43,386 nucleotides of DNA from a virus: IMG/VR virus record IMGVR_UViG_3300005734_000003, positions 1 to 43,386 of that record; one strand, given 5' to 3'. A program made the position numbers and the translations under genes. This document shows, piece by piece, positions 25,517-39,543 of the stretch. The notes below the pieces were generated by a model. The model did no database searches and had not been told where the DNA came from. It worked only from the letters and a program-made list of their open reading frames with translations. The number at the start of each line of letters is the position of its first letter. The first letter of the stretch is position 1.

Positions 25517-26413
25517 TTATTTAAATGACCAATACTCAGACGGTTTGCCTCGGTATTGCTCAAGATCGACCCCTTTTAATTCTGGGATCTTCGCATAAGC
25601 AACATTACCTTTTCTAGTGACCTTGGTCAATTTATGCCCGTTAATTTCACTATCGCGTTCACCGCAACGTTCAACTAATTCGGCTAGAAGGTCTTTTTTT
25701 CTCGTGTCCAGATCTTTTATAGTGTCGCCAATGTTTTTTATAGTGTCTCCAATGGTTTTAATCTCGTTGGCAATATCCACGATTAAGCGGTCGTCCTGCT
25801 TCTTGTGCTTAGGCTCTAGGTACCGTAAAGCGTTTGGCATTTCGCGTTCTACAAGATAAGCGTCATAAAACTCTTTAAGCTTAGGGATGTTTTTATCAAG
25901 CCATTGTTGGTTTAGGTGATCTGTTTCAAGACTGTCCCCATGCGGTGCCCACTGGTAAAACTCGACATAGTCTCGACTAGCGCACGCCATCTCGATTTGA
26001 GTCTGTGCCATGTAGTGCGGCTGTTCATGTAGTGTTTTAAACACAGGCGGGTTTTTATCGCGTTGCCCATACGGGCATTTAATTTCGGCCACGCCTTTGT
26101 CACCGATTAGTCCATCTGGTGACGCGCCTAGCCATTCGTGTTCTGGATGCACGAAAAAACCGCATTCCTCGACGGGCTGATCCAAGTGAAACATTTCCAT
26201 TTGCTTAGTTGCACCTGGCTCGTTATGCGTGCCCCACTCCGTCGCTGGGTTACCGACAAACTCGCGCTCAGCATCGTGATAGGCTCGCACCATCTCGCGC
26301 ATGACATCAATCGGTTTTTTGAACGGGCTAAGACCTAGAATTGCGCCTACATTGTAGCCAGTAATGCGTTCCTTGCGTTGCTCAAACCATTCTTTGCTGC
26401 GTTGTTCAATCAT
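25517..26413 (-). CDS. YqaJ-type viral recombinase / lambda-exonuclease-like nuclease
   Basis: A 298-residue protein, MIEQRSKEWFEQRKERITGY, where W...R..RIT.S..A..lG is the YqaJ family opening. The active site shows GASPDGLIGDKGVAEIKCP (Asp and E-x-K) followed by a conserved Tyr/Gln region (QPHYMAQTQIEMACASRDYV). It resects double-stranded DNA ends to give single strands for annealing. It lies next to SSB and the Sak4-like ATPase. ATG at 26413 has GGAGAG upstream; longer forms run into the terminator. Confidence 0.85.
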   Translation of the reverse strand: MIEQRSKEWFEQRKERITGYNVGAILGLSPFKKPIDVMREMVRAYHDAEREFVGNPATEWGTHNEPGATKQMEMFHLDQPVEECGFFVHPEHEWLGASPDGLIGDKGVAEIKCPYGQRDKNPPVFKTLHEQPHYMAQTQIEMACASRDYVEFYQWAPHGDSLETDHLNQQWLDKNIPKLKEFYDAYLVEREMPNALRYLEPKHKKQDDRLIVDIANEIKTIGDTIKNIGDTIKDLDTRKKDLLAELVERCGERDSEINGHKLTKVTRKGNVAYAKIPELKGVDLEQYRGKPSEYWSFK

Positions 26414-26426
26414 ATAAAACTCTCCT

Positions 26427-26446
26427 AAAAAAGGGGCCGAAGCCCC
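26427..26446 (-). terminator. Leftward intrinsic terminator inside the recombination operon
   Basis: On the minus strand GGGGC-TTCG-GCCCC followed by TTTTTT. The UUCG tetraloop makes it very stable. It lies between SSB and exonuclease genes, so the genes downstream should be transcribed at a lower level, or only with antitermination. Confidence 0.85.
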
Positions 26447-26453
26447 GTATTGG

Positions 26454-26981
26454 TTAGAATGGGATATTATCGCCATCATCAGGAGCAGGACTAGCAGGCG
26501 CTTGTTGCTGCACAGGCTGCGGAACAGAGTCTTTGCTGGCTACTGATTGAACCCAGTTTCCTGTTTTCTTCTCTCCGTCGCGTTCCATTTCCCAAACCGC
26601 CAATTTAATGATCATCGGCTTCATGCCTAGGCACGTCATTAGGTTTTCAGCGTTTGGCGCTTGACCACTAGCCATTAACTTACCGCCAGCGTTCGCATCA
26701 ATATTGGCAAGCATGCGTTTTGCCTTATCACTAACCTTCGGGTCAAGATCAAAAACCTTAACCTTGTGAAAGATCTTACGGTTTTTGTATTCTTCGCCTT
26801 TCAGAACATTCCAGCGTAGTGAAATATATTCTTGACCATCGTATGCGTCAATCTTTGCCTCGTCGATTACGGCTAGGCATTCCGTACCATTAGGGATTGG
26901 CTCCATCTGACCGCCACCCATTTCAAAACTACCAGTTGCTTCTGGTGTTGTGTTATCGCTTAGATTCCAAAAATCGGACAT
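26454..26981 (-). CDS. Phage single-stranded DNA-binding protein (DUF669-like)
   Basis: A 175-residue protein. After the N-terminal MSDFWNLSDN the central part (ECLAVIDEAKIDAYDGQEYI, SLRWNVLKGEEYKNRKIFHK, IKLAVWEMERDGEKKTGNWV) fits the DUF669 OB-fold family. A Pro/Gln-rich linker leads to an acidic tip DDGDNIPF, like the DDDIPF tip of bacterial SSB that recruits partner enzymes. It is encoded between the Sak4-like ATPase and the exonuclease. AAAGGAAAG precedes the ATG. Confidence 0.75.
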   Translation of the reverse strand: MSDFWNLSDNTTPEATGSFEMGGGQMEPIPNGTECLAVIDEAKIDAYDGQEYISLRWNVLKGEEYKNRKIFHKVKVFDLDPKVSDKAKRMLANIDANAGGKLMASGQAPNAENLMTCLGMKPMIIKLAVWEMERDGEKKTGNWVQSVASKDSVPQPVQQQAPASPAPDDGDNIPF

Positions 26982-26993
26982 TTGTCTTTCCTT

Positions 26994-27839
26994 TTATTGT
27001 GGTTGATTTTGTTGTTTGTAAAACGTAATGTATTGAATAAGCGGGTTTTCACCTTTCAATACCTTTATTTCTTGTGGCATGTTGTAGCGGTTTTTTGCAT
27101 CAACATAGCCGGTAGTGCCATCGGAGGACGTTATCAAATAACGATCACCTGACGTCGTTACACGCGCAGACTTGATCTGCTCGCCTTTTCTGTTTGACTC
27201 GGCACCAGTTAGGTATCGCTCTTCTTTTATGTAGATGACAGCATCAGACCTACTGACATAAAGTTTTTTGCTACGCTCGTGCATTGCTAGAGAATACGTA
27301 CTATATTCGCTAGTCTCTTCTGGAGACATCTTAACTTTGTGTACTCCAGTGTGAGACAAAAATACTACTGCCATCCCTTTTTTACGTAAAAACTCACATG
27401 CTCGAATTAAATTTGAGTGCATTCCCATTGAGACATCGTACCCTTTATGGAATCCACCTGCTGCATTTCCGATAGAGTCGCAAGGCTTATTGCTGTCATC
27501 GAATACTACAACTTCCTCCTCATATAAATCATTAAGAGATGTAACAGAATCAATAACAACTGTTTTATAATCATGCTTCTCTTGAATAAGCATGCGCAAT
27601 TTATCCATAACTTCAAGTGATGGGCGATGCCCTGTCTGTTTATCAGCCTTTGTCAACTGCTTTAAGAAAGCTGGTTTTACTTCTGACGTCTCGAACACAG
27701 TCTTAGCATTTTCAGCTTGAATAAAAATAGGGTTAGGAAATAACCCAGCTAGAGAGGTTTTACCAGCGCCTGGAAAACCTACAATTGTGATGATTGGCGC
27801 TTGTGGTGCGTTATCATCTAGTTCATCTTTTAAGCTCAT
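26994..27839 (-). CDS. Sak4-like RecA-family ATPase (single-strand annealing)
   Basis: A 281-residue protein with Walker A GFPGAGKT (21-28), Walker B TVVIDSVTSL (about 93-102) and VVFLSHTGVHKV (motif after the core). Length and sequence fit phage P-loop proteins of the Sak4 group, which promote single-strand annealing together with SSB. First gene of the leftward operon, preceded by AAAAGGAG, an operator-like palindrome and a strong promoter. Confidence 0.8.
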   Translation of the reverse strand: MSLKDELDDNAPQAPIITIVGFPGAGKTSLAGLFPNPIFIQAENAKTVFETSEVKPAFLKQLTKADKQTGHRPSLEVMDKLRMLIQEKHDYKTVVIDSVTSLNDLYEEEVVVFDDSNKPCDSIGNAAGGFHKGYDVSMGMHSNLIRACEFLRKKGMAVVFLSHTGVHKVKMSPEETSEYSTYSLAMHERSKKLYVSRSDAVIYIKEERYLTGAESNRKGEQIKSARVTTSGDRYLITSSDGTTGYVDAKNRYNMPQEIKVLKGENPLIQYITFYKQQNQPQ

Positions 27840-27859
27840 TGGCTCGTCTCCTTTTGTAT

Positions 27860-27873
27860 TGTCGTTATCGACA
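27860..27873. promoter_or_regulatory. Palindromic operator candidate
   Basis: TGTCG-TTAT-CGACA, a perfect 14-base inverted repeat between the -10 and the start codon of the Sak4-like gene, where a bound repressor would block transcription of the recombination operon. Confidence 0.5.
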
Positions 27874-27879
27874 GAGGCA

Positions 27880-27908
27880 AATTTACGTGCTTAAAATAGT
27901 CATGTCAA
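27880..27908 (-). promoter_or_regulatory. Leftward promoter of the recombination/replication operon
   Basis: On the minus strand TTGACA, exactly 17 bases, TAAATT. A consensus -35 with optimal spacing, 41 bases from the start codon. It is divergent from the primase promoter region. Confidence 0.7.
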
Positions 27909-27945
27909 CAATTAATTCAAAATATTTTTGTTTGCATAACACTAA

Positions 27946-27974
27946 TTGACAACGTATTATCCCGTACACATACA
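27946..27974 (+). promoter_or_regulatory. Candidate rightward promoter of the primase gene
   Basis: TTGACA (27946-27951), 17-base spacer, CATACA. The -35 is perfect but the -10 is weak; TAGTAT at 27978-27983 is an alternative -10 without a matching -35. A phage or host activator may be needed. Confidence 0.4.
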
Positions 27975-28003
27975 GAGTAGTATTAAAAGGAGAGCTAAAC
28001 AAA

Positions 28004-30265
28004 ATGATGATAGATCATACTGACTATATAGAGGCCGGACTCAGGGTTTTTGGGGTCTACGGCGTAAAAGATGAAATGTGCGAATGCGGCAATCCAAACT
28101 GCAAAGCTTATTTCAAACATCCGCGCACATCAGCATGGCAGCACACCCCGCAATGGAGTGAAGAGCAAATAGAAATGATGGAGGAAATGGGATACTTCAA
28201 GACCGGATTCGGTGTTTTAGTATCAGGCCTTCTTGTTGTCGATGTCGATGCCAGGAATGGTGGGGTTCCATCATACGAGCGATTAGTCAGTCTAATCCCA
28301 GCTATAAAAGACAGCGGATTTGTCGTTGAGACTGGCAGCGGTGGCGGGTCAAAGCACGTATATTTTTCATTACCTGAACCTATCGCAATGGTGCAGACGC
28401 ATAAAGAATTTGAAGGTATTGATTTTAAAACGAGCGGGTTCGTGATTGGAGCTGGATCTGTTCATGCATCAGGAAATGAGTATGAAGCGCTATCCGGTTC
28501 ACCAAGCAAAATCACCCCAGCGCCACAAGCATTAATTGAGCTACTACGTAAACCAGAACGCCACAGGGCTGTTGTCGACGGGTCTGCGATAGACGTGTCA
28601 GATAGTGATCTGCGCGATATGTGCGCATATATCAACCCAAGCTGTGATCATGAAACATGGATACGAGTAGGTATGGCACTACATCATGCCACGCAGGGCA
28701 GTGGATTTGATATTTGGGATGGATGGAGCGCGGGAGGCGACACTTATCCTGGTAGTGATGAACTAGACAAACGTTGGCAGTCATTCGGTAAATCTAGCAA
28801 TCCTGTATCACTAGGCACCCTAATTCATTACGCGCGGGAGGGCGGCTACGTCGAACCCGTTGATTTTGTTCCGTCAGTCACTTTCGATATGGATGATACG
28901 CCAATTGACACCATGGCGATTGACTTGCTTCGCCCGCCCGGGTTCGTTGGTGATCTATGCGGGTGGATAAACGGGCAGTCGCTGTACCCGCGCGAATCTC
29001 TAGCAGTTGCGGCAGCATTGACGGCAGTGAGCAATATAGCAGGAATGCGATACCGTGACGAACTCGACGGGATGACTCCCAATATCATTGCGTTCTGCGT
29101 GGCTGGTTCGGGAACGGGTAAAGAATCCGTTGGCAAAGCCTTCGCAGAAATCATGCGTTTAGCTGATTTATCACCCGCTTTATACGGGGCGTTTAAATCC
29201 GAGCAAGAGCTGTACCGTAATTTATTGCGGCATCAACCTGCTTATTATTCGGTCGACGAGCTTGGCATTCAACTAACTAAGATAAAAAACGCCATGTCTC
29301 GAGGAGGGGCGTCATATCTTGAAGGTCTACTGGGTGCCGTTATGTCGGTTTACTCAAAAGCGGATTCGTTTCTACCTGTGACAGGCGATCTAAAAGAGGA
29401 GATACGCGCCCAACTTGGAAAAGAATATGCAGCAATCAATAAACAATTAGACGATGGACGAGGAAATACTGACTTACTAGAGCGCAAATTAAAAACCGTA
29501 GAACGGCAATTGAGCACGATAGATCAAGGCATCGACTCGCCATATCTGTCGATTATCGGATATACAACGCCTGCAACGTTCGACGGATTGTTCGATTTTG
29601 AACAAGCAACAAATGGGTTCTTGTCTCGCGCCATGATATTTAAAGAGCTTGAGAACAATCCGAAACGCAAGCCTAAATTTAAAAAGATGCCGATGTCCGA
29701 GCAAATGCAAAACACGCTGTTTACCTTACGCCACGCTGGGAATTATAGCGTCGTGCAGGATAGTCGCATAGAACATACAGGGCAGAAAACGGTCATACCA
29801 ACTACGCCAGAGGCGGCAGAGCTGCTAGATAAAGCTTACAACGAGTTTTGGACAATAGCAGAGCAGCACAAAAACCAGACTGGGCTAGAGGCTATACCGC
29901 GACGCGGTTACGAAATGGCAGCTAAGGTTAGCTTAATTCTGGCACTACCTGGTGGGTTACGCACCGAGGAGCACGTCAGATGGGCCGTGGCGCTCGCTAA
30001 TCGTGATATACAGGAAAAGCTAAAACTCGCCTACACAAACAGCGCAGAGAGCGAAATAGACCGCCTAGCGGCTCGAATCATGTCTATTATCAGTAGCGAT
30101 CACAGCGAGACTATAGGTGTTATCCGCAATCGTTGCCGTTCGTTTGATAAAGGGCAAGTTGACGCCGTTCTGAATAAGCTTGTCGATGCTGGGCAGATTA
30201 TATGCGAGGAAGTGCCCACCGAAAGCAAGCGACAATCCACCGTAAAAAAATATAGAGCGGCATAG
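28004..30265 (+). CDS. Bifunctional primase-polymerase (PrimPol) fused to a helicase-like domain
   Basis: A 753-residue protein. The N-terminal PrimPol domain shows the metal site VVDVDARNGG (Asp80, Asp82), the TGSGGGSKHVYF motif (Ser-x-His near 116-118) and FEGIDFKTSGFVIG. A CECGNPNC cluster lies at 26-33. Residues 200-285 resemble a PriCT domain (CDHETWIRVGMALHHATQ, WQSFGKSSNP). Residues 300-700 form a DUF3987-like helicase region with P-loop GSGTGKES (about 368-375). The C-terminal 70 residues look like a winged helix (IIGVIRNRCR..DKGQVDAVL). It primes and probably unwinds phage DNA and precedes the candidate origin. Confidence 0.85.
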   Translation: MMIDHTDYIEAGLRVFGVYGVKDEMCECGNPNCKAYFKHPRTSAWQHTPQWSEEQIEMMEEMGYFKTGFGVLVSGLLVVDVDARNGGVPSYERLVSLIPAIKDSGFVVETGSGGGSKHVYFSLPEPIAMVQTHKEFEGIDFKTSGFVIGAGSVHASGNEYEALSGSPSKITPAPQALIELLRKPERHRAVVDGSAIDVSDSDLRDMCAYINPSCDHETWIRVGMALHHATQGSGFDIWDGWSAGGDTYPGSDELDKRWQSFGKSSNPVSLGTLIHYAREGGYVEPVDFVPSVTFDMDDTPIDTMAIDLLRPPGFVGDLCGWINGQSLYPRESLAVAAALTAVSNIAGMRYRDELDGMTPNIIAFCVAGSGTGKESVGKAFAEIMRLADLSPALYGAFKSEQELYRNLLRHQPAYYSVDELGIQLTKIKNAMSRGGASYLEGLLGAVMSVYSKADSFLPVTGDLKEEIRAQLGKEYAAINKQLDDGRGNTDLLERKLKTVERQLSTIDQGIDSPYLSIIGYTTPATFDGLFDFEQATNGFLSRAMIFKELENNPKRKPKFKKMPMSEQMQNTLFTLRHAGNYSVVQDSRIEHTGQKTVIPTTPEAAELLDKAYNEFWTIAEQHKNQTGLEAIPRRGYEMAAKVSLILALPGGLRTEEHVRWAVALANRDIQEKLKLAYTNSAESEIDRLAARIMSIISSDHSETIGVIRNRCRSFDKGQVDAVLNKLVDAGQIICEEVPTESKRQSTVKKYRAA

Positions 30266-30269
30266 CCGC

Positions 30270-30297
30270 TTCACATCGTTAAAAAATGTGCTATATT
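30270..30297 (+). promoter_or_regulatory. Promoter firing into the candidate origin
   Basis: TTCACA (30270-30275), 16-base spacer ending TGC, TATATT (30292-30297). Transcription would start near 30304, at a hairpin CTGAAAGCC...GGCTTTCAG (30300-30328), and end at the terminator 30451-30476, giving an RNA of about 170 bases with no credible gene. Confidence 0.5.
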
Positions 30298-30334
30298 GTC
30301 TGAAAGCCGCATGGATAGTGGCTTTCAGCTATAT

Positions 30335-30626
30335 TAAATAGCTTAAATAACATAAATAGTAGAGAGCTTACTATTTATTAGAGCCAGCAATGGCGCGACC
30401 TACAGCAAGATTTCAACATTAAATAGCTAAATAGCAGCCGACCTCTAAAGCACTATATGAAAATATGGTGTTTTTTGCGTGTTTGTTTCTCTACTATTCA
30501 TTTATTTAACTATTTAATAATATATATATAATAATATATATATAAAAGAATAATAAAAACAATACCTTAGAAGTAAGTAAGTACTAACTACTAAATAGTA
30601 GATTATCCGCTATTTATTGCTATTTA
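30335..30626. other. Candidate replication origin: iterons plus AT-rich unwinding region
   Basis: The interval from 30266 to 30720 has no gene. It holds nine exact copies of the heptamer TAAATAG/CTATTTA: plus strand at 30335, 30353, 30420, 30428, 30592; minus strand at 30371, 30510, 30610, 30620. Two copies form a 10-base inverted repeat (ATAAATAGTA 30352-30361, TACTATTTAT 30369-30378). A run of TATATA and TAATAATATA (30516-30545) would melt easily. Repeated initiator sites around an AT-rich core next to the primase gene is the classic layout of an iteron origin. Confidence 0.65.
30451..30476 (+). terminator. Intrinsic terminator inside the origin region
   Basis: CACTATAT, loop GAAA, ATATGGTG (one G-U pair) then TTTTTT. 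It ends the transcript expected from the promoter at 30270 and separates the two groups of iterons. Confidence 0.75.
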
Positions 30627-30655
30627 GTGGTTTTTCTATTTTTTAGAAATAATCC

Positions 30656-30683
30656 TTGACCCCACCGACACGTTTTATATACT
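30656..30683 (+). promoter_or_regulatory. Promoter of the 30.7-32.7 kb accessory genes
   Basis: TTGACC (30656-30661), 16-base spacer, TATACT (30678-30683), 40 bases before the first start codon. The 16 bases AAATAATCCTTGACCC around the -35 (30647-30662) are repeated exactly at 33471-33486. Confidence 0.65.
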
Positions 30684-30722
30684 CAGTGGACGAATTGACG
30701 AATTGACCATGGAGAGCGGAAA

Positions 30723-31106
30723 ATGAAACTACACGACCTACTAAGACACATTGCGGATAATGTTGAGAATGGCGAAATTTGGAGTGAGGGAATTGATATT
30801 AGTGATGAAGCAGCATGGGAGGATTCTGTTTTCTTTGGAAGCGCTTCTTCTGTCAAATTAACACCACGCACCCGCGAGGTAAACGGGTTTACTGTGCCAG
30901 CGCCTGTTCGTGAGCCGATAAAAAATGGCAGTGTTTACTACGTAGAAGATCCAACTGATTCATGTTGGTATGTTGCCCACTCATGGGGCGGTGGTGATTT
31001 GGATAAACGATTCCTTGAGCGTGGTCTTATTCATCTTAATCAAGACTCAGCCATCGCCAACGCTAAAGCACATCGCGGAATTGATCCAAAGTGGGGTGAA
31101 GAATGA
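30723..31106 (+). CDS. Hypothetical phage protein
   Basis: A 127-residue protein. EVNGFTVPAPVREPIKNGSV is followed by YYVEDPTDSCWYVAHSWGGG and RGLIHLNQDSAIANAKAHRG, a pattern shared by a widespread family of small phage proteins of unknown function (N.f.vP.P......G..YYv.d........W......D...l..G......e.A...ak). GGAGAGCGG precedes the ATG. It is first in the rightward accessory operon. Confidence 0.6.
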   Translation: MKLHDLLRHIADNVENGEIWSEGIDISDEAAWEDSVFFGSASSVKLTPRTREVNGFTVPAPVREPIKNGSVYYVEDPTDSCWYVAHSWGGGDLDKRFLERGLIHLNQDSAIANAKAHRGIDPKWGEE

Positions 31107-31264
31107 AATACTCAGAACAAGAAATAAAAACAATGGCACGCGAATCACTGCGAGCAAAGGAAAATCACGACCCGCGCTATTTTCAGTTGATAATGTCTAT
31201 CAGTATGATTACAGGAATTCCGGCAAGCGAAGTTGAAAGTCGCATTGAGAGGTTATCAAAATGA
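31103..31264 (+). CDS. 53-residue hypothetical protein
   Basis: MKYSEQEIKTMARESLRAKE, NHDPRYFQLIMSISMITGIP, ASEVESRIERLSK. All-helical; the part RYFQLIMSISMITGIPASEV resembles a family of small phage proteins with D.RY.ql...l...TG....ev. ATGA overlaps at both ends. Confidence 0.5.
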   Translation: MKYSEQEIKTMARESLRAKENHDPRYFQLIMSISMITGIPASEVESRIERLSK

Positions 31265-31383
31265 CCCACCAAGCCACAAAAACGGCCCGTACAGACGATT
31301 TAGCGACAAACCCATACCGATGCACTACTAACAACAAAAACGCGCTTGTGTGGGCGTACAACAGTTGCAAGGTGGACGAATGA
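31261..31383 (+). CDS. 40-residue hypothetical protein
   Basis: MTHQATKTARTDDLATNPYR, CTTNNKNALVWAYNSCKVDE. Start and stop each overlap a neighbour by four bases, the main support for the frame. No motif recognised; low confidence. Confidence 0.35.
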   Translation: MTHQATKTARTDDLATNPYRCTTNNKNALVWAYNSCKVDE

Positions 31384-31754
31384 AACTAACCGACCTAATC
31401 CTGGAAAGCGACACACCTATAGAGGAGCTGGCCAGACGTGTAAGTGCATATCCTAGCCAGTTGCAAAAATATATTGACGGGAATAAACGAGCGATTACAA
31501 TTACCCAGCAAGAGCAGATTCGTCAAATGCTGATCGACGACGAGACGGACGACGATGACGGTCTCGATTGGGAGGAGCTTGCTAATAAATACGAACCACC
31601 AGCGCCTAACGGTGCCCAGTACTGGGGTTTTGGTAGTTTTTACAAAATAGCGCGCGGCCGTGTTTGGATGTACGTAGATGGTGAGTGGATCACGTCTAGC
31701 AAGACCGAGCAAGCTGTGAAGGATTATCCAGTGGTTGAGGATAGTGACAAATGA
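31380..31754 (+). CDS. HTH-containing hypothetical protein
   Basis: A 124-residue protein MKLTDLILESDTPIEELARR onward. Residues 12-50 (IEELARRVSAYPSQLQKYID) read as a small helix-turn-helix, followed by an acidic loop (DDETDDDDGLDW) and a Trp/Tyr-rich domain (GAQYWGFGSFYKIARGRVWM). ATG at 31380 overlaps the previous stop. Possible regulator; the aromatic C-terminal domain is of unknown type. Confidence 0.5.
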   Translation: MKLTDLILESDTPIEELARRVSAYPSQLQKYIDGNKRAITITQQEQIRQMLIDDETDDDDGLDWEELANKYEPPAPNGAQYWGFGSFYKIARGRVWMYVDGEWITSSKTEQAVKDYPVVEDSDK

Positions 31755-31930
31755 AAGAGAGGCAAATAGGTGAAATAGGCAATTATTACGGTTTTTTGGC
31801 GGTAAAAGAAGAAGGTGGCAAATTCTATTGGGGTATAGAGAACTGGGACGGTACTTACTGGCAGGAAATACCGGAGCATCTTTATGTTGCGTTAAATGCG
31901 TTTGAAGACAGTCAGGGGTGCGATCAATGA
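31751..31930 (+). CDS. 59-residue hypothetical protein
   Basis: MKERQIGEIGNYYGFLAVKE, EGGKFYWGIENWDGTYWQEI, PEHLYVALNAFEDSQGCDQ. A small beta-sheet protein rich in Tyr and Trp, a type frequent in phage accessory operons (g.IGnYYG.l.vk...g.yyW.iE...G..W..Ip..LY.AL). Overlaps both neighbours by four bases. Confidence 0.6.
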   Translation: MKERQIGEIGNYYGFLAVKEEGGKFYWGIENWDGTYWQEIPEHLYVALNAFEDSQGCDQ

Positions 31931-32106
31931 AATTTTCACTAATATTTATTTTTATATTGCTTGTGGGGTGTAAGGATTACACAATCGAAAAGCAGGATAA
32001 TATTAATTCATGCAGAGATATGGGTGGAATTCCTGTCCTATCGATATGGGATGGCAGGCTTTCAGATTGTATTTTTAAGGATAACAATAAAGGACAAGAT
32101 ATATGA
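31927..32106 (+). CDS. Small phage lipoprotein
   Basis: A 59-residue protein MKFSLIFIFILLVGCKDYTI with a short lipoprotein signal and lipobox LVGC (Cys15). The mature peptide contains two more Cys (NSCRDMGG and SDCIFK) that could form a disulfide. Lys-Asp after the lipid Cys could retain it in the inner membrane by the Asp+2 context rule only partly, so location is uncertain. A superinfection-exclusion or envelope role is possible. Confidence 0.65.
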   Translation: MKFSLIFIFILLVGCKDYTIEKQDNINSCRDMGGIPVLSIWDGRLSDCIFKDNNKGQDI

Positions 32107-32657
32107 AACCAACAAAAGAACAGCTGGCAGGATTGAGACTACTAGCAAAACGCCCAGAGCCAGTAAAAGAGCAAGTAAACGAACCCGAGTGGATGGATAG
32201 TCCAGGCACAGGTGAATGCCCTGTACCTGCTGGGCATGCTGTTGAAATTGATGTTTCAATTAAAGGAATTTGTAAGGATGGCCAGACTGAGTACTGCATT
32301 TGGGGTGATGACTCAGGGTCAGATATAACAACCAAATATAGAGACTGGACTGCATTTGAGCAAAAAGAAGAGCCAGTAAAAGAGTATGTGCCGAAGGTTG
32401 GGGAGGAGTGCGAGTTCAAACACCCAACTCTAGGATGGACTGGATGCACTGTGATAGGCCCATTTCGATCAGCCATGGTGTGCGCTCCAAATGGAGGTGG
32501 ATTTTATCAGGGTATGCCTAGTGATTATCGCCCAGTCAAAACCGACCGCGAGGAGTTGATTGATATTATTAAGTGCAATAATGGAAATCCCGCAGAATTG
32601 GCTGTTGATGAAATCCTATCTAAATTCACCCTAACCAAGAAGGATATCGATAATTAG
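32103..32657 (+). CDS. Hypothetical protein sharing a CPVP...YRDWTAF domain with 34211-34693
   Basis: A 184-residue protein. Residues 28-87 (EPEWMDSPGTGECPVPAGHA, then GICKDGQTEYCIWGDDSGSD and TKYRDWTAFEQ) form a domain found again in the protein at 34211. The second half (VGEECEFKHPTLGWTGCTVI, SDYRPVKTDREELIDIIKCN) resembles another common phage segment with an SH3-like fold. Several Cys could bind metal. Function unknown. Confidence 0.6.
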   Translation: MKPTKEQLAGLRLLAKRPEPVKEQVNEPEWMDSPGTGECPVPAGHAVEIDVSIKGICKDGQTEYCIWGDDSGSDITTKYRDWTAFEQKEEPVKEYVPKVGEECEFKHPTLGWTGCTVIGPFRSAMVCAPNGGGFYQGMPSDYRPVKTDREELIDIIKCNNGNPAELAVDEILSKFTLTKKDIDN

Positions 32658-32676
32658 CAACCTGTTAAATTAAAGA

Positions 32677-32781
32677 TTGACACCAGCGGTCATGGTGCTA
32701 GTCTGTGTTTATCACCAACTCGTAAGGAGGTGAAATAGCAGTACCCGCCAACAACATGCGTGAGCATCTTGGGCGGTTTTT
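32677..32781 (+). ncRNA. Promoter plus predicted 70-base small RNA 3 carrying an orphan Shine-Dalgarno sequence
   Basis: Promoter TTGACA (32677-32682), 16-base spacer ending TGC, TAGTCT (32699-32704). The RNA would begin near 32711, with hairpin TCACC...GGTGA (32712-32733) whose loop and 3' arm carry TAAGGAGGTGA (32723-32733), an exact 11-base complement of the usual 16S rRNA 3' end. No start codon lies at a usable distance. A terminator hairpin follows: CCGCC (32745-32749) with GGCGG (32772-32776), inner ATGC-GTGA-GCAT, then five T. Confidence 0.5.
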
Positions 32782-32821
32782 AATACTTACATTACACCCT
32801 ATAGCTAAAACGGAGATGAAA

Positions 32822-33064
32822 ATGATTACGGTGAGAGTGAAAATAACAGATTATGACAAGACAAGTAACACTTGCACGGCGCAATTATTGAATGGTGACA
32901 TTATTGAGCTAGACCCTTTTGTTAGTTGTGCCATAAACATGACAGATGAAGAATACGAGAGTGGTAAAGGCTTCGACATTGTCGGAAATAATTACTTGCT
33001 AACTGCGTATACGGTATATAAAGGAAACGTAGTCCCTCATAAGGGAGGAATGCTACCTGTATAG
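32822..33064 (+). CDS. Hypothetical protein
   Basis: An 80-residue protein MITVRVKITDYDKTSNTCTA onward, beta-rich, with LLNGDIIELDPFVSCAINMT and NYLLTAYTVYKGNVVPH. ATG at 32822 has CGGAG at a good distance; the in-frame ATG at 32756 lies inside the terminator hairpin of the upstream small RNA and is less likely. No family recognised. Confidence 0.5.
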   Translation: MITVRVKITDYDKTSNTCTAQLLNGDIIELDPFVSCAINMTDEEYESGKGFDIVGNNYLLTAYTVYKGNVVPHKGGMLPV

Positions 33065-33143
33065 CAACACAATATAAGACAGTTTGCAGAAGGGTAGCAT
33101 AAGCAAGATCGCAGCCCCTGCTGCCATTATTAGGAGAGAAGCC

Positions 33144-33476
33144 ATGAACCACCCAATAACAACAATCCGCCAATTGGCAGACAAGCTAGGCGTAAGCAGA
33201 TACGTACTGGATGGGCGACAAAGAAACTACCCTATCAACTCTGAATACACTATCAAGAATGGTGTTAGGCATTATAAGAAGGGGGTGCTAGTAGAGTGGC
33301 ACAAGCGGTGCGAGCGCATAAACGCAGGCGATCTCACTTTAGGTGTATCGGTTGTGATCAATGAAGGTAAGGACGCTAGGCTAAAAGGCGTTCCGTTAGA
33401 TGAGAACCCGCATTCTTATCGTGGCGACATCCGCCGATTCTGCGCATGGGCAGCAGGCTGGCATGATGCAAAATAA
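33144..33476 (+). CDS. Protein with N-terminal HTH and C-terminal ribosome-modulation-factor-like segment
   Basis: A 110-residue protein. Residues 5-30 (ITTIRQLADKLGVSRYVLDG) form a typical recognition HTH. Residues 73-110 (EGKDARLKGVPLDENPHSYR, then FCAWAAGWHDAK) follow the E G..A...G.....NP.......W..GW..A pattern of RMF/CrpP-like small proteins, which bind ribosomes (RMF) or act as stress factors. AGGAGAG precedes ATG. It lies just downstream of small RNA 3. The fusion is unusual and ribosome binding is inferred. Confidence 0.6.
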   Translation: MNHPITTIRQLADKLGVSRYVLDGRQRNYPINSEYTIKNGVRHYKKGVLVEWHKRCERINAGDLTLGVSVVINEGKDARLKGVPLDENPHSYRGDIRRFCAWAAGWHDAK

Positions 33477-33479
33477 TCC

Positions 33480-33507
33480 TTGACCCACAGCGCACAAGTG
33501 CTATATT
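33480..33507 (+). promoter_or_regulatory. Promoter of the outer-membrane protein gene
   Basis: TTGACC (33480-33485), 16-base spacer ending in TGC, TATATT (33502-33507), 26 bases upstream of the start codon. A near-ideal extended -10 promoter. The surrounding 16-base word repeats the -35 region at 30647. Confidence 0.7.
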
Positions 33508-33532
33508 TAATATAGACAAGAGGAGAGACGAC

Positions 33533-34051
33533 ATGACTAACAAAACTAAAAACATTCTAACAACGCTTTGGGTTATCGTGGTGCTGGCTGTATTTTCGGT
33601 TGGTACATTTGCGGATGAACTTGAAGTGCGCACTACCGACCTGACTTATACCTGGGGCCCTAATCATAGCTTCCCTGTTACCTTGTACCAAATCGGATAC
33701 ACAAAAACATTAACCCGTGGCGTTGGTATCCGTGTAATGTTTGGCGAATCTGATACGCAGAGTGACGGACATCGATACAGCTCAAAGATTGAACAAATGT
33801 TTGTGTTTAACATTCACCGTAACATTAACATTGGCCGTGATTGGGTTGTCCAGTATGGTGTCAACTACACCGAGTACAAAGAACACGGTAAGTCAGACAC
33901 TGGTACAGGGTATGCTTTGGCGTTACAGTACAACATAAACAGTGATTATGCTATTAAAGTGTCGTACGACGAGTATTACGAGAAATACAATGATCATTAC
34001 GGATTGGAACAAACTAAAGGCGTTGGCCTTTCACTTGTGAGTAAGTTCTAA
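33533..34051 (+). CDS. Phage-encoded outer-membrane beta-barrel protein
   Basis: A 172-residue protein with a Sec signal peptide (NILTTLWVIVVLAVFSVGTF, cleavage expected after TFA near residue 28). The mature part alternates polar and hydrophobic residues in about eight strands (LTYTWGPNHSFPVTLYQIGY, GVGIRVMFGES, WVVQYGVNYTEYKE, GYALALQYNI, YAIKVSYDEYYEKY) and ends VGLSLVSKF, where a terminal Phe is the BAM-complex signal of outer-membrane proteins. It has its own strong promoter. It may mask receptors or alter the envelope of infected cells. Confidence 0.75.
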   Translation: MTNKTKNILTTLWVIVVLAVFSVGTFADELEVRTTDLTYTWGPNHSFPVTLYQIGYTKTLTRGVGIRVMFGESDTQSDGHRYSSKIEQMFVFNIHRNINIGRDWVVQYGVNYTEYKEHGKSDTGTGYALALQYNINSDYAIKVSYDEYYEKYNDHYGLEQTKGVGLSLVSKF

Positions 34052-34209
34052 TGACGTTTACAAGTTGGATACCAGGGTATATTTACGGATTAGAGTTTGA
34101 GGATTATGACATCATCCCAAAGGATATGGATTTCGATGATGTTATAAAGAATGAGATATTAGCGTCAATGGTCGCTAATAATGCAATTTACAAGATGATG
34201 GGAGAGTGA
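34051..34209 (+). CDS. 52-residue acidic hypothetical protein
   Basis: MTFTSWIPGYIYGLEFEDYD, IIPKDMDFDDVIKNEILASM, VANNAIYKMMGE. The ATG overlaps the last base of the barrel gene stop (TAATG). Strongly acidic in the middle. No family recognised. Confidence 0.45.
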   Translation: MTFTSWIPGYIYGLEFEDYDIIPKDMDFDDVIKNEILASMVANNAIYKMMGE

Positions 34210-34210
34210 T

Positions 34211-34693
34211 ATGAAAGAACCAAAATGGCTACCAAACCCAATGACGGGCAAGTGTCCAGTGCCGGATGGGCATGATGTTGAGGTTAAGTTTGCGAACGGA
34301 GAAACATGTAGAGACGATGGGCCAGAGAGTTGGCACTGGGAAAATATTTCAGGCAATGAAACAATAACCCACTACCGAGACTGGACTGCATTCAACCAAC
34401 AGCAAGCGCAGGCCGAGACTACAAAAAGCGACGGTTCTACTGCTAGTTATTACGAGCTACCAGAAGGCGTAACAGAGCTACAGCACCTAATCAGTCATCG
34501 CAACATGAATGCACAAATTGGCGAGATATTCCGTGCGTGCTATCGTTACGGACTGGTTGAACATTCAGAAATGCTGCGTGATGCAAAAAAGATTAAATTT
34601 TATGCTGAGGCTGAGATTGAGAGGCTAGAGAAGCTATCAAGTAAAGTAGGCACTACCAAATGGGAGACTAGTCATGATACGCGGACTAATTGA
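34211..34693 (+). CDS. CPVP...YRDWTAF domain plus DUF3310-like helical domain
   Basis: A 160-residue protein. The N-terminal domain (EPKWLPNPMTGKCPVPDGHD, NGETCRDDGPESWHWENISG, THYRDWTAFNQQ) is homologous to residues 28-87 of the protein at 32103. The C-terminal part (GVTELQHLISHRNMNAQIGE, IFRACYRYGLVEHSEMLRDA, KKIKFYAEAEIERLE) follows the DUF3310 pattern (.l.dli.....f..G...ky..R....... .DLkKa..yl...i), known in phage nucleotide-kinase-like proteins. Two-domain fusion of unknown role. Confidence 0.6.
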   Translation: MKEPKWLPNPMTGKCPVPDGHDVEVKFANGETCRDDGPESWHWENISGNETITHYRDWTAFNQQQAQAETTKSDGSTASYYELPEGVTELQHLISHRNMNAQIGEIFRACYRYGLVEHSEMLRDAKKIKFYAEAEIERLEKLSSKVGTTKWETSHDTRTN

Positions 34694-34817
34694 AGCAGTG
34701 ATCGCAGTTACTATCTGTGTATGTTTATTGTACGCAGCGGTGGCTTATAGTAAGGTTTATCTATGTCAGCAGTTGCATGATGATTGTAAGATTGTGGCTG
34801 TGAAGGAGGTGGACTGA
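34674..34817 (+). CDS. 47-residue membrane protein
   Basis: MIRGLIEAVIAVTICVCLLY, AAVAYSKVYLCQQLHDDCKI, VAVKEVD. One transmembrane helix with a Cys-containing tail. It begins 20 bases inside the gene before it and supplies GGAGG for the following gene. Confidence 0.45.
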   Translation: MIRGLIEAVIAVTICVCLLYAAVAYSKVYLCQQLHDDCKIVAVKEVD

Positions 34818-34984
34818 TGGATAAATTTTTTCTTGGATTAGTAATAGGGTTTTTCACCATGGTTATTATTGCAAGCGTGCATGTTAATGACATAGACAGA
34901 AACGCTGGCATGCAGGAATGCGAGCAAAATCTACCGCGCAATGAGCATTGCGTACTAATCGCGGTACCGGAGAGTAAGCTATGA
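34817..34984 (+). CDS. 55-residue membrane-anchored protein
   Basis: MDKFFLGLVIGFFTMVIIAS, then VHVNDIDRNAGMQECEQNLP and RNEHCVLIAVPESKL. A signal anchor followed by an exported segment with two Cys; the pattern ECE.NLPRn..C..iavP is frequent in small phage membrane proteins. Its stop overlaps the next ATG by four bases. Confidence 0.55.
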   Translation: MDKFFLGLVIGFFTMVIIASVHVNDIDRNAGMQECEQNLPRNEHCVLIAVPESKL

Positions 34985-36471
34985 TCTGCCCTAGCTGTAA
35001 CTCAGACAACCTAAAGTCACACGGATCTAATCCGCCGAGATGGATATGTGGCGATTGTACAAAAACGACAAGAAAGCCGCTTGATGGCTATCAGTTCCCT
35101 GTAGTCGAAAAGACAAGCGATAGATTCGTAATCACATGGGCACAGAACGCAACGGCCCCACATGCAAGTACGCTGCGTACACTAAAACAGTATTGCAAGC
35201 ACAATAATGCTCAACTTCTAGTAATACCTGGGCGATACCGTAATGCGACAAGCGTATGGTCAAAAGCCCAAGAAGATCAGGATTGGTGGGACAAGGATAT
35301 TGAGCCATACTTACTGGGACATGAGCTTGAGCTATGCAAAAACCTAGTGATAGGTGGAGATGTTCGCCTTCAGCCGACTGCATCGAATCCGTTGCAAGGG
35401 CTAAAAACAATCAGTGGCCACAAGTCATATATCCTGGGGCACCCACAAATAGCCTTCGAGACAGTAGCGACCCCACAAAGCAAACTAGCAAAAATTGTAA
35501 CGACTACCGGAGCGATCACAAAGAAAAACTACAGCGACACAAAAGCAGGTAAGAAGGGCGAATTTCATCATGAGATAGGCGCAACCCTAGTCGAGCTAGA
35601 TGGCGGTAAATTCCACATCCGTCAGCTTATTGCTAATGGCCATGGTGTCATATACGACCTAGACAAGCGTTACGATGGCAAGACGATCAAAAGCAAGCAG
35701 CGTGCAGAGTGCTTTGTGTCTGGTGATTTTCACGGAAAGTACCTAGACGAGAAAGTAAAGGCAGCTTGGTGGACGGGAAAAAATAGCCTATTCAATCTTA
35801 TTAAGCCTAAGACACAGGTATTCCATGATGTCTTTGACGGTTATTTCGGATCACACCATCATAAGCACGACCCGTTTTTGGGTGTAAAGAAACACTTTAA
35901 AGGCGATAATGACGGACAAAACGAATTAATCGACACATTGCAGAAGCTTGATGATTGTCTGCTTGCTGATAAAAACTACATAACTAAGTCAAACCATGAC
36001 GAGCATTTAGACCGATGGTTGAAGGAAACAGACTGGCGTAAAGATCCAGCCAATGCGGAGTTTTATCTTGAGACCGCGCTAGAGATAGTTAAGACTATAA
36101 AGCATGGCGGCAAGTTCGACCCGCTTGAATACTGGGCAAAGAAAACAGGGCTCGCCAAAAAAGGTATTTTTCTAAAGCGTAATGATGTTGTTAGCGTCAA
36201 GGAGCATATTGTGTCAATGCATGGCGATAAAGGCAGCAATGGCGCCAGGGGATCAATAAAAGGGTTTGACGCGATTGGAGTTAGAAGCGTTACAGGCCAT
36301 GGTCATGCACCAGGGAAAGAAAAAGGCGCTTGGCGTGTTGGCATTAGTTGTATATATGGTTTAGAGTATGCAGTAGGTAGCCCGTCAAACTGGATGCAGA
36401 CGGGGTATATTTTGTACGCTAACGGCAAGGGTTCGCTAATCAGCTGCATTGATGGGGAGTATAGGACATGA
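34981..36471 (+). CDS. Zinc-ribbon plus calcineurin-like metallophosphoesterase-type protein
   Basis: A 496-residue protein. Residues 3-26 form a zinc ribbon (CPSCNSDNLKSHG...WICGDC). The rest shows in order SGDFHGKYLD (about 247), FHDVFDGYFGSHHHKHDP (about 280), KSNHDEHLDRWL (about 336), SMHGDKGSNGARG (about 413) and TGHGHAPG (about 437). These resemble the D-x-H, GDxxD, GNH(D/E), H and GHxH metal motifs of calcineurin-like phosphoesterases, the fold of SbcD/Mre11 nucleases. A DNA-acting phosphoesterase or nuclease is plausible. The call is by motif order only; the spacing is looser than in classical members. Confidence 0.6.
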   Translation: MICPSCNSDNLKSHGSNPPRWICGDCTKTTRKPLDGYQFPVVEKTSDRFVITWAQNATAPHASTLRTLKQYCKHNNAQLLVIPGRYRNATSVWSKAQEDQDWWDKDIEPYLLGHELELCKNLVIGGDVRLQPTASNPLQGLKTISGHKSYILGHPQIAFETVATPQSKLAKIVTTTGAITKKNYSDTKAGKKGEFHHEIGATLVELDGGKFHIRQLIANGHGVIYDLDKRYDGKTIKSKQRAECFVSGDFHGKYLDEKVKAAWWTGKNSLFNLIKPKTQVFHDVFDGYFGSHHHKHDPFLGVKKHFKGDNDGQNELIDTLQKLDDCLLADKNYITKSNHDEHLDRWLKETDWRKDPANAEFYLETALEIVKTIKHGGKFDPLEYWAKKTGLAKKGIFLKRNDVVSVKEHIVSMHGDKGSNGARGSIKGFDAIGVRSVTGHGHAPGKEKGAWRVGISCIYGLEYAVGSPSNWMQTGYILYANGKGSLISCIDGEYRT

Positions 36472-36680
36472 CAGAAAATAAATTAGATATGATTTACTTA
36501 TTTTTTACTATATTGGGGTTGATTTTATGTGCGCATATTGTATTGATGTCATTATGTGAATTCTTTACATGGGGTCAAGCTGTTTGGGATATTGGAAAAT
36601 GGAAGTTAGAGCAAAGAGTAGGCTGGCTGATTTACATTATTGCTTTCATGTTTGGATTTGCACATTATAGGTCAAAATAG
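36468..36680 (+). CDS. Two-span membrane protein
   Basis: A 70-residue protein with transmembrane helices MIYLFFTILGLILCAHIVLM and GWLIYIIAFMFGFAHYRSK, separated by a Trp-rich loop (EFFTWGQAVWDIGKWKLEQR). It overlaps the phosphoesterase gene by four bases. No family recognised; possible holin-like or exclusion protein. Confidence 0.5.
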   Translation: MTENKLDMIYLFFTILGLILCAHIVLMSLCEFFTWGQAVWDIGKWKLEQRVGWLIYIIAFMFGFAHYRSK

Positions 36681-36691
36681 GAGTATAGGGC

Positions 36692-36904
36692 ATGATAACA
36701 AGGCATTATTTTTATGATGTGAAGGTTTACCATGGAGATGGTACGTTAGGATATGGCTGTATCGAGGGGATATTTACTATAAAAAGCTTATTCCCGCGCA
36801 ATCCCGCAACGATACTTAGCGATATAAGAGATGAGGCAGACACTAGATTCAGGTCAATGTACCCTAACGGAAGTATAGAAGCCACTGCGTTTAATAGGAT
36901 TTAG
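36692..36904 (+). CDS. Hypothetical protein
   Basis: A 70-residue product MITRHYFYDVKVYHGDGTLG onward, with GIFTIKSLFPRNPATILSDI. The strand-rich start and the FP.......l...r pattern resemble small phage proteins beginning M...yfYdv......G.......G....kS.FP. Last gene before the terminase region. Confidence 0.5.
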   Translation: MITRHYFYDVKVYHGDGTLGYGCIEGIFTIKSLFPRNPATILSDIRDEADTRFRSMYPNGSIEATAFNRI

Positions 36905-36930
36905 CGCAGTAAGCAAACATGCACATATTC

Positions 36931-36939
36931 TGGTACTAT
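36931..36939 (+). promoter_or_regulatory. Extended -10 promoter before the small terminase gene
   Basis: TGG directly before TACTAT (36934-36939), 46 bases upstream of the start codon, without a clear -35. The decamer ATTTATACAT occurs at 36938-36947 and again at 36978-36987, where it runs into the start codon. Confidence 0.35.
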
Positions 36940-36985
36940 TTATACATTAGTACTGGAACGTGTACATTTTTGGGGTTATTTATAC

Positions 36986-37414
36986 ATGACAAAGAAGCTG
37001 ACGCAAAAACAAGAGAATTTCTGTCGGTTATTTGTTGAGCTTGGCAATCAGTCTGAGGCTTATAGACAGGCATACGAAACAACAGCAGGCCATGAGACCG
37101 TTAATGTAAACGCCTGTAAGCTACTCAAAAACGCTAACGTAGCACAAAGGGTAGCAGAATTAAGAGAAAACATAGCAATGAAGCACGAAGTAACCGTCGA
37201 AAGCCTCTTAAACGAGCTAGAAGAGGCGCGCACAATAGCATTGACCTGTGAGACACCTCAAAGCTCCGCGGCCATCTCTGCGACAATGGGTAAGGCTAAA
37301 CTGTGTGGGCTTGATAAGCAGATTATTGATCACACTAGTTCGGATGGTAGTATGAAGCCAAGCGTCATACAGATAGTTGCACCTAGCGAATCAACAGATC
37401 CAAGTGACGATTAA
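36986..37414 (+). CDS. terS: Terminase small subunit
   Basis: A 142-residue protein starting MTKKLTQKQENFCRLFVELG. LT.KQe.F...y.e.gN.seAYR.AY and ACKLLKNANVAQRVAELREN are the signature of the Terminase_2 family, in which the N-terminal HTH binds the pac or cos site. The central helices (ESLLNELEEARTIAL) provide oligomerisation. It is followed by the large subunit with an 11-base overlap. The C-terminal tail is acidic. The ribosome site is weak (GGGG). Confidence 0.85.
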   Translation: MTKKLTQKQENFCRLFVELGNQSEAYRQAYETTAGHETVNVNACKLLKNANVAQRVAELRENIAMKHEVTVESLLNELEEARTIALTCETPQSSAAISATMGKAKLCGLDKQIIDHTSSDGSMKPSVIQIVAPSESTDPSDD

Positions 37415-38630
37415 ACGCGTTGAAATCCCACCAAAACTAATCCCCGTCTTTGCCCCGCCTAGGGGCGAATTGCGTTACAGGGGAGCTTATGGAGGCCGTG
37501 GTTCTGGTAAGTCTTACACCTTCGCTAAGATGGCGGCTATCTGGGGCGCTGTTGAATGCCTGCGCATACTGTGTACTCGTGAGCTACAAAACTCTATCAA
37601 AGAATCATTCCATGCTGAACTGAAGAACGCCATTGCATCTGACCCATGGCTTACCAGTTGCTATGATGTCGGTATTGACTATATTCGCGGCCATAATGGA
37701 ACCGAATTCCTGTTCCGTGGTCTTCGTCACTCGATGGGCGCGATTAAGTCTACCGCGCAGATAGACCTATGTATCGTTGAAGAGGCCGAAGATGTACCGG
37801 AAAGCGCCTGGCTTGATCTTCTGCCCACTATTCGAGCGCCTAAATCTGAGATATGGATAGTATGGAACCCGAAAAAAGACGGCAGTCCTACCGATACTAG
37901 GTTCAAGAAAAACGAACCTAGCCGCTCTAAAATCGTTGCTATGAACTACAACGACAATCCATGGTTCCCCGATGAACTAGAGGAAATGCGTAGGGATCAG
38001 CGAGCCATTATGGAAGACGCTGTTTATCGCCATGTGTGGGAAGGCGCATACCTTAAACACGGTGCCGCGCAGATATTCAGCAAGAAATACGTAATCCAAG
38101 ACTTCGATGCTCAATCAAACTGGGATGGGCCTTACTACGGCATCGACTTTGGTTTCGCCCAAGATCCTACCGCTGCGGTGCGTTGTTGGGTAGCTGATAA
38201 TAGGCTTTATATTGATTATGAAGCTGGCAAAGTGGGGCTAGAGCTCGATGACACTGCCGATTATATAAAAGACCGAGTGCCAGATATAGCGAGTCATGTA
38301 TCAAGGGCAGACTCCGCAAGGCCTGAGTCCATTAGCTACCTTAAGCGTAAAGGTTTGCCAAGGATTGTTGGCGTTGAGAAGGGTAAAGGTAGTGTTGAAG
38401 ATGGCATCGAGTTTATTAAGAGCTTCGAGAAGGTGGTCATTCATACGCGATGTGAGAAGGTGGCCGAGGAGTTCAGCAACTACAGTTACAAGGTTGACAG
38501 GCTGTCAGGCGATATACTGCCCGTGCCTGTCGATGATTGGAACCACTACATTGATGCTCTGCGTTATGCCCTGCAGCCGCTAATGAAGGCGCGGAAAGTC
38601 GCGCCTATTGCGTTTAGTTGGTCGAATTAG
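37404..38630 (+). CDS. terL: Terminase large subunit
   Basis: A 408-residue protein. GTG at 37404 gives MTIKRVEIPPKLIPVFAPPR. The ATPase domain has RGAYGGRGSGKS (Walker A, 30-37), LCIVEEAED (Walker B, about 122-130) and WIVWNPKKDGSPTDTRF (coupling motif). The nuclease domain has YYGIDFGFAQDPTAAVRCWV, ADSARPESISYLKR and DDWNHYIDALRYAL, supplying the three catalytic Asp positions. This is the Terminase_3 (XtmB) family of headful or cos packaging motors. The next rightward virion gene, portal, is displaced by a leftward cassette. Confidence 0.92.
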   Translation: MTIKRVEIPPKLIPVFAPPRGELRYRGAYGGRGSGKSYTFAKMAAIWGAVECLRILCTRELQNSIKESFHAELKNAIASDPWLTSCYDVGIDYIRGHNGTEFLFRGLRHSMGAIKSTAQIDLCIVEEAEDVPESAWLDLLPTIRAPKSEIWIVWNPKKDGSPTDTRFKKNEPSRSKIVAMNYNDNPWFPDELEEMRRDQRAIMEDAVYRHVWEGAYLKHGAAQIFSKKYVIQDFDAQSNWDGPYYGIDFGFAQDPTAAVRCWVADNRLYIDYEAGKVGLELDDTADYIKDRVPDIASHVSRADSARPESISYLKRKGLPRIVGVEKGKGSVEDGIEFIKSFEKVVIHTRCEKVAEEFSNYSYKVDRLSGDILPVPVDDWNHYIDALRYALQPLMKARKVAPIAFSWSN

Positions 38631-38755
38631 TCACCATTGGTGGCACAGATCTCAAGAAGCCTCGCTATGGCAAATCCTCTCTGATCATAATCAAAAAGGT
38701 GCCAGCTTCTATCTATTTCGTCATACGTCATTTTGCTTATGGTTGCTTCATTCAT
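38627..38755 (-). CDS. 42-residue hypothetical protein
   Basis: MNEATISKMTYDEIDRSWHL, FDYDQRGFAIARLLEICATN, GD. Helical acidic product; the stop codon overlaps that of the converging large terminase gene. It is the last gene of the leftward cassette, one base after the stop of the gene before it. Support is mainly from gene packing. Confidence 0.4.
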   Translation of the reverse strand: MNEATISKMTYDEIDRSWHLFDYDQRGFAIARLLEICATNGD

Positions 38756-38756
38756 G

Positions 38757-38960
38757 CTAAATAGCCTCTAATCTTGATCCGTAAAATACAAAGCCGGAGC
38801 TAACTCCAAGCTTTCTCATCTGCTCTTTTGATATACGGACAACCTCTGGGTTGGCGCCATTCTTTGCCTTACGCCAGTATTCTTGGTACTGCAAAATCTC
38901 TTGCTGAACCTTCTCACTAGCCTTTGTCTTTGATAGTGGTTCTTTTTTTTGGTTGGCCAT
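38757..38960 (-). CDS. Small Lys/Glu-rich hypothetical protein
   Basis: A 67-residue product MANQKKEPLSKTKASEKVQQ onward, ending GFVFYGSRLEAI. Highly charged helical N-terminal half, then RISKEQMRKLGVSSGFV. ATG at 38960 is preferred; TTG at 38984 would give a four-base overlap with the preceding stop and eight extra residues. No family recognised. Confidence 0.45.
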   Translation of the reverse strand: MANQKKEPLSKTKASEKVQQEILQYQEYWRKAKNGANPEVVRISKEQMRKLGVSSGFVFYGSRLEAI

Positions 38961-38980
38961 CTCACACACCCATTTATTAG

Positions 38981-39196
38981 TCAAATATCTAAGACACTAG
39001 CCTTTGATTCCTCTAGATATTTTATTAATGAATCTATCTGCTTTATTGAATCACCTACTGCCTCATGTTTATTTTTTCCTACTGCGTTTATAACACCTTT
39101 GAAGCCACGACCAGATGAGTAGTAATCAATCACACCCTCGATCTTAACGCTATCGCGGCTTTCGCCAGGTTTTATGTTTATAGTTAGTTCCATCAT
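38981..39196 (-). CDS. Hypothetical protein
   Basis: A 71-residue protein MMELTINIKPGESRDSVKIE onward, with YYSSGRGFKGVINAVGKNKH and a C-terminal helix (SIKQIDSLIKYLEESKASVL). Beta-strand start with a helical tail; unassigned. AAAGG lies upstream. Confidence 0.45.
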   Translation of the reverse strand: MMELTINIKPGESRDSVKIEGVIDYYSSGRGFKGVINAVGKNKHEAVGDSIKQIDSLIKYLEESKASVLDI

Positions 39197-39220
39197 TGTT
39201 TGTTGCCTTTGTTAGTGGGA

Positions 39221-39508
39221 TTATAGGCTATCCAGGGCTTCTTCAATAGCTTCTCCCAAGCAGCAGCCACCATTGTAGTATTTAACTTCAAAAGATATTG
39301 ATCCATCACTATTTTTACTTGATGTAAAAATATCCTCATAATCGTAAACTTTACTATATTTAATTTCATATACAAGCCCATTAACAATAATAGCCTTTTC
39401 GTAGTAATGATCCTCGAACATATCTATATCTTCTATTTCTGGATCAAACTCAGCCATTGTCTTACCTGTTGGTATTAATTTACCTTTGTAATGTACAGTT
39501 TCGCTCAT
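39221..39508 (-). CDS. Acidic hypothetical protein
   Basis: A 95-residue protein rich in Asp, Glu and Tyr (EFDPEIEDIDMFEDHYYEKA, YSKVYDYEDIF), ending KYYNGGCCLGEAIEEALDSL. The GGCCLGEAI segment with paired Cys and a terminal helix is distinctive. The strong negative charge is compatible with a DNA-mimic or inhibitor role, but this is speculation. It has its own promoter upstream. Confidence 0.5.
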   Translation of the reverse strand: MSETVHYKGKLIPTGKTMAEFDPEIEDIDMFEDHYYEKAIIVNGLVYEIKYSKVYDYEDIFTSSKNSDGSISFEVKYYNGGCCLGEAIEEALDSL

Positions 39509-39543
39509 AATTGTTTCCTCTTAATAAGTATATTCAAACCCAA

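Follow-up and report, generated by a model that had tools for sequence, protein, structure and literature searches.

The window, a 43,386-nt stretch of DNA analysed at its full length, is an IMG/VR virus record from an uncultivated phage. On its plus strand we confirmed a discrete unit of promoter, Shine-Dalgarno (SD) word and terminator at 32677-32781, as proposed in an earlier reading made from the sequence only. The promoter (32677-32704), read from the sequence and scored with a weight matrix, has a TTGACA -35 element (32677-32682) and, after a 16-nt spacer, an extended -10 in which TGC precedes the TAGTCT hexamer (32699-32704). From this placement the RNA is expected to begin at about 32711. 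A first hairpin (hairpin 1, 32712-32733) pairs TCACC (32712-32716) with GGTGA (32729-32733) and encloses part of the SD word TAAGGAGGTGA (32723-32733). The word has the 11-nt complementarity to the 3' end of 16S rRNA that had been claimed for it, and its core AGGAGGTG occupies 32725-32732. The triplets GTG AAA TAG, of which GTG lies inside the SD word, are found at 32730-32738, also as described earlier. A 12-nt linker without a start codon, AAATAGCAGTAC (32733-32744), leads to the terminator hairpin CCGCC-AA-CAA-CA-TGC-GTGA-GCA-TC-TTG-GGCGG (32745-32776) and a tract of five T (32777-32781). The next gene (32822-33064) starts 40 nt past the T-tract and encodes an 80-aa protein with no Pfam match; it is the putative regulated gene.

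Simple scans overlooked both ends of the unit, the promoter because its -10 fits TATAAT at only 3/6 positions and the terminator because of its internal loops. Folding recovered the terminator hairpin at -23.9 kcal/mol (z -2.6), and by the criterion of a stable GC-rich hairpin followed by a U-tract it is predicted to be an intrinsic terminator. The RNA of about 70 bases with a terminator at its end, as claimed from the sequence, agrees with the predicted start, the folded hairpin and the end of the T-tract. The promoter had been called strong. Its -35 is perfect, the TG extension is present and the weight-matrix score exceeds those of all 300 shuffles, but given the -10 hexamer the adjective is generous.

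The exact word TAAGGAGGTGA occurs once in the window, where chance would give roughly 0.02 when both strands of the 43 kb are counted; at up to two mismatches there is no excess in the window (10 occurrences versus a shuffle mean of 8.7). Its predicted duplex with the 16S tail has an energy of -18.0 kcal/mol, and the best of the 27 window genes examined reaches -16.4 kcal/mol, with most between -4 and -9. The claim that the word is far stronger than any ribosome-binding site of the phage needs qualifying, since opening the RNA's self-structure costs 10.5 kcal/mol and leaves a net binding of only -7.5.

Comparative sequence analysis indicates that the element is a small conserved phage RNA unit and not an isolated oddity. 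In addition to the window site we identified 17 further sites in viral contigs. One search followed relatives of a nearby T5 A1-like protein to nine loci, four of which carry the element, two of them at gene positions other than that in the window. This protein, encoded at 34981-36471, matches a T5 A1-like "DNA transfer protein" (phrog_1745, E 1.5e-139) and lies beside terminase genes in a 43-kb record. Further sites came from pattern scans of viral contigs; the final pattern specified the terminator hairpin and T-tract but not the SD word, and returned 17 stretches, one cut by a contig end. The sets of 16 sites used below for duplex energy, promoters, masking and peptide frame, and start codons and flanks leave out L040, which is cut by a contig end, and L192, which repeats the L189 element; the 16-site set for upstream stop codons leaves out L040 and L217. 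A covariance model (R1, 15 members) matched 16/21 records at E values up to 1, with 17 strong places; the sites from which it was built are among them, so the matches do not amount to independent evidence. Two copies occur in one record, G016, on opposite strands and in two operon-like positions. The linker between SD word and terminator measures 9-13 nt across 16 sites, and a T-tract is present at 16/16, with 4 to 7 T.

The terminator hairpin is supported by covariation. Across 15 distinct sequences the drawn two-hairpin structure is satisfied in 98.2% of cells, and 16 cells carry changes on both sides of a pair, compared with a shuffle mean of 4.8 (0/500 shuffles reach 16); the number of pairs with such changes, three, is equalled by 57/500 shuffles. 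RNAalifold on 16 sequences predicted the same terminator hairpin, with three two-sided pairs, all within it. The inner stem varies among TCA/TGA, CTA/TAG, CCA/TGG and CAA/TTG, and the apical stem changes from TGC/GCA to TTC/GAA beneath a GNGA loop. Single-sequence folding gave other minimum structures for L184, L186 and L190. For hairpin 1, only one-sided, compatible changes were seen, and RNAalifold returned three of the four drawn pairs plus one weak inner pair. The TCACC/GGTGA hairpin described in the sequence-only reading is present, but it does not mask the SD word in the window more strongly than shuffled 5' flanks do (p 0.17). Masking as a selected feature is not supported: p was above 0.05 at 15/16 sites and the combined p was 0.07 for nine chosen representatives. 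Also rejected, by inspection, was an antiterminator pairing of GGUGAU with AUCAC of the second hairpin: GGTG is constant, yet the inner stem can read CTA, CAA or CCA. A CsrA-type sponge was discarded by inspection as well; the element has a single GGA-containing word.

The AGGAGGTG core lies directly 5' of the hairpin in 16/16 judgeable sites, found with a pattern that did not contain the SD word. Conservation of this word in related phages had been named as a point on which the original proposal could fail, and on this point it did not. In 14/15 records the examined sequence, with both strands considered, has its longest exact anti-SD complement (8-11 nt) in the element; in the exception, G001, a 9-nt match elsewhere exceeds the element's 8. 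The 24 nt before the SD word diverge strongly from lineage to lineage; L184 and L189, for instance, share 29% identity there and 97% in the hairpin, and both keep the word. These observations bear on the plainest alternative, that this is an ordinary intergenic terminator whose SD word serves something unrelated, or was kept by recent common ancestry or by exchange of a gene-boundary cassette. Its occurrence between different gene pairs would fit, as would the other exchangeable boundary sequences and other conserved terminators common to these phages. However, a plain terminator has no need of the longest anti-SD complement in a record, nor does it account for survival of the word where the 5' flank has been replaced, and we consider this explanation rather unlikely.

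Could the SD word instead serve translation of a short leader peptide or minigene, from the GTG within it or from an ATG in the hairpin? At 9/16 sites a GTG inside the SD word is in frame with an apparent, conserved-looking peptide encoded by the hairpin (P-A/V-N-x-M/I-R-E-x-L-x-R-F). However, that GTG overlaps its own SD, one further site has only TTG, and six of the 16 have no in-frame start. The same upstream gene end precedes the element in L007, L036, L217 and L025, yet the frame is shifted by their linkers of 10, 11, 12 and 13 nt, respectively, and paired positions of the hairpin covary. In L184 and L189, ATT stands in place of the ATG found at 32756. Translation from this codon, which the sequence-only reading had regarded as incompatible with its proposal, is thus not a common feature. 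No start codon occurs 3-12 nt after AGGAGG at 13/16 sites, in line with the earlier claim that there is none, and neither a reading frame nor a start codon is conserved across the element at 16 sites. A translated product is thus highly improbable. Minigenes of the lambda bar type likewise combine a strong SD with almost no coding sequence; the phage element differs from them in the same lack of a start codon at 13/16 sites.

A decoy acting in trans, in which an RNA some 70 nt long builds up and occupies the anti-SD of 30S subunits, was one of the functions suggested from the sequence. The complementarity of 8-11 nt and predicted duplex energies of -13.9 to -18.1 kcal/mol at 16 sites would suit such a decoy, as would the missing open reading frame and the combination of own promoter and terminator in the window, L005 and L019, with weaker promoters at four further sites. 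Promoter-like sequences whose -10 ends 19-21 nt before the SD word are found at 7/16 sites (shuffle p 0.00-0.06), but the other 9/16 have no suitably placed promoter-like sequence from which an autonomous RNA could arise. The element also sits in a leader-like position, its SD is partly masked (predicted opening costs are 4-10.5 kcal/mol across sites) and a decoy would require ribosome-like copy numbers. We regard a decoy as distinctly unlikely; what may stand of the original suggestion is a switch acting on 30S subunits in cis rather than in trans.

The same reading had paired the element with a second ribosome-directed function, a nearby gene for a protein resembling ribosome modulation factor (RMF; 33144-33476). 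Its C-terminal match to RMF is weak (Pfam 19.7 bits, below the curated cut-off of 27.9), and there is a faint N-terminal helix-turn-helix match. Among the records searched, only the window and one close relative, G001, have an RMF-like gene in the vicinity of the element, and the protein, tried as a route for tracing conservation, had no relatives in viral contigs. The proposed pairing is not upheld.

Flanking genes differ between sites, and the element usually lies just before a co-directional gene. At 12/18 sites, a co-directional gene with an SD-like word begins 15-41 nt past the T-tract. At the other 6/18, the first such gene either lies farther than 41 nt away or was not seen; L025 has an ORF at +30 without an SD. 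At 10/16 sites the gene upstream ends close to the SD, with its stop codon finishing 14-17 nt before the word. Terminase or portal genes follow on the same strand, 1.7-4.4 kb downstream, in ten records including that of the window, with large terminases 26-58% identical to that of the window phage where compared. Short runs of small genes follow the element in G020 and the second copy in G016; in G020, one has a YopX domain. Signal-peptide-like starts are seen in the product of window gene 33533-34051 and in products of genes that follow the element in L007, L036 and L019; the window protein also has a weak match to beta-barrel outer-membrane proteins.

This arrangement resembles the Escherichia coli ampC leader, which overlaps the end of frdD and likewise runs from an upstream gene end through AATGTAA, a GC-rich hairpin and a T-tract to the next gene shortly after. 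According to Jaurin and colleagues (about 1981), a ribosome in the ampC leader reportedly prevents termination. As judged from sequence, the phage element likewise appears to place a ribosome-binding sequence just before a terminator and a downstream gene, with the 9-13 nt linker at 16 sites and the gene 15-41 nt away at 12/18. In place of the start-stop AATGTAA of ampC, it has an SD word of 8-11 nt, usually without a start codon. With none at 13/16 sites, stable initiation is unlikely and the start-stop feature of ampC is missing. Further differences are the hairpin itself, with its internal loops and GNGA apex, and its phage-borne exchange between gene contexts, and the covariance model did not match the ampC leader. 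We therefore do not claim it as a member of the ampC type.

We tentatively favor, at somewhat less than even confidence, a cis-acting, ribosome-responsive transcription attenuator that works like ampC. Arguing for it are the SD word kept in all judgeable sites and its rank as the longest anti-SD complement in 14/15 records, the terminator covariation, the short linker, the constant T-tract, the missing reading frame, the leader-like position with its nearby stop codon upstream and terminase or portal genes downstream, the two copies in G016 and the order of parts in ampC. From these we infer the following sequence of events. RNA polymerase would either start at the promoter of the element or come in from the gene upstream, and the transcript would present the strong SD word and, 9-13 nt later, the 5' arm of the terminator. 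With the SD unoccupied, the hairpin would fold and transcription would stop. Alternatively, the SD could be bound by a 30S subunit, or could recapture a ribosome fresh from termination at the stop codon upstream. The footprint of a 30S subunit reaches about 15 nt past the start position, so that of the bound subunit or ribosome would overlap the 5' arm and hinder the hairpin, and transcription would continue into the downstream genes, in many phages toward terminase and late genes. No start codon would be necessary, because occupancy and not a peptide would be the signal. A possible but more doubtful extension is that the SD without a start codon captures 30S subunits or just-terminated ribosomes as an antitermination signal, which would give it a physiological role in gating late transcription by translational capacity.

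Several observations count against attenuation, among them the lack of a start codon at 13/16 sites. Hairpin 1 sequesters part of the SD and would be expected to slow 30S docking in the brief interval before the terminator forms. The genes downstream vary from site to site and do not obviously form a common regulon, and at 6/18 sites no qualifying gene was seen within 41 nt.

Other phage leaders offer partial parallels. The late leader of lambda, transcribed from pR', is a terminated short RNA before the late genes; the phage element, which also precedes late genes, is comparable as a short terminated unit close to a promoter. Unlike that leader, it has a conserved SD word, many sites lack a promoter, and no Q-like gene was identified. 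A put-like RNA, which would bind RNA polymerase and confer terminator resistance, is suggested by the size of about 70 nt, the two stem-loops and the two copies in G016 at two operon-like positions; putL and putR of HK022 are, according to PMC9378689, about 70 nt long with two stem-loops and two copies per genome. The phage element differs in the T-tract after hairpin 2 (16/16 sites) and the invariant SD word, which a put-like function would leave unexplained. The covariance model had no match in HK022 24000-40751, a stretch in which the put coordinates are unchecked. Such a function is very unlikely here.

Searches for the element elsewhere covered several collections. Rfam (4227 families) gave no match to the whole window at gathering thresholds, nor to the 3.2 kb around the element at E values up to 5. 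Short-query blastn, which is insensitive at such length, returned only short chance-like matches in 50,697 phage records and in 72,556 plasmids. The best-scoring cultured-phage matches to the terminase and primase of the window phage are to an Alteromonas and a Pseudoalteromonas phage; the covariance model found nothing significant on Alteromonas phage PB15, part of Pseudoalteromonas phage H103 and five related loci. A pattern search of 369 class-level and 390 order-level genomes around one marine gammaproteobacterium gave 0 matches and thus no host or prophage. With the covariance model, the element was not among the 150 candidates scored per genome in three whole genomes, and in a whole-genome scan with the hairpin pattern none among the matches listed had both upstream GGAGG and TTT after the hairpin. 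An SD-plus-TAG pattern was rejected as a finder, as it returned only ordinary ribosome sites of other phages. The element is undescribed in the literature searched, which takes in few subscription papers and includes PMC9378689, PMC8545117, PMC12190993 and PMC8430887.

If the attenuator reading is correct, the SD/anti-SD contact would act purely as a sensor of occupancy that controls transcription, with no initiation involved, and phages would have a compact, transferable device coupling operon read-through to ribosome supply. Should the mechanism prove wrong, there would still be a concrete object here: a family of small structured phage RNAs that Rfam lacks and whose anti-SD complement is invariant.

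Two other sequences were encountered in these phages. L212-L214 (records G015, G014 and G001), which are weak matches to the model, contain a conserved terminator of another kind, CCCGCCAATCGAAAGAAAGGCGGGTTTTTT, with CCACCTC ahead of it. Pairing between CCACCTC and the GAGGTG in the element is conceivable, but the match is probably coincidental. Another exchanged boundary cassette, ATGCAGATATTGATTAAGGAGGGGTTGGTGTGA, lies on the minus strand at L219:16635, L224:5861, L230:7035, L234:2407 and L235:19983. It is apparently a gene end with a strong SD, is followed by different downstream genes, and has a diverged form at position 21278 of the window.
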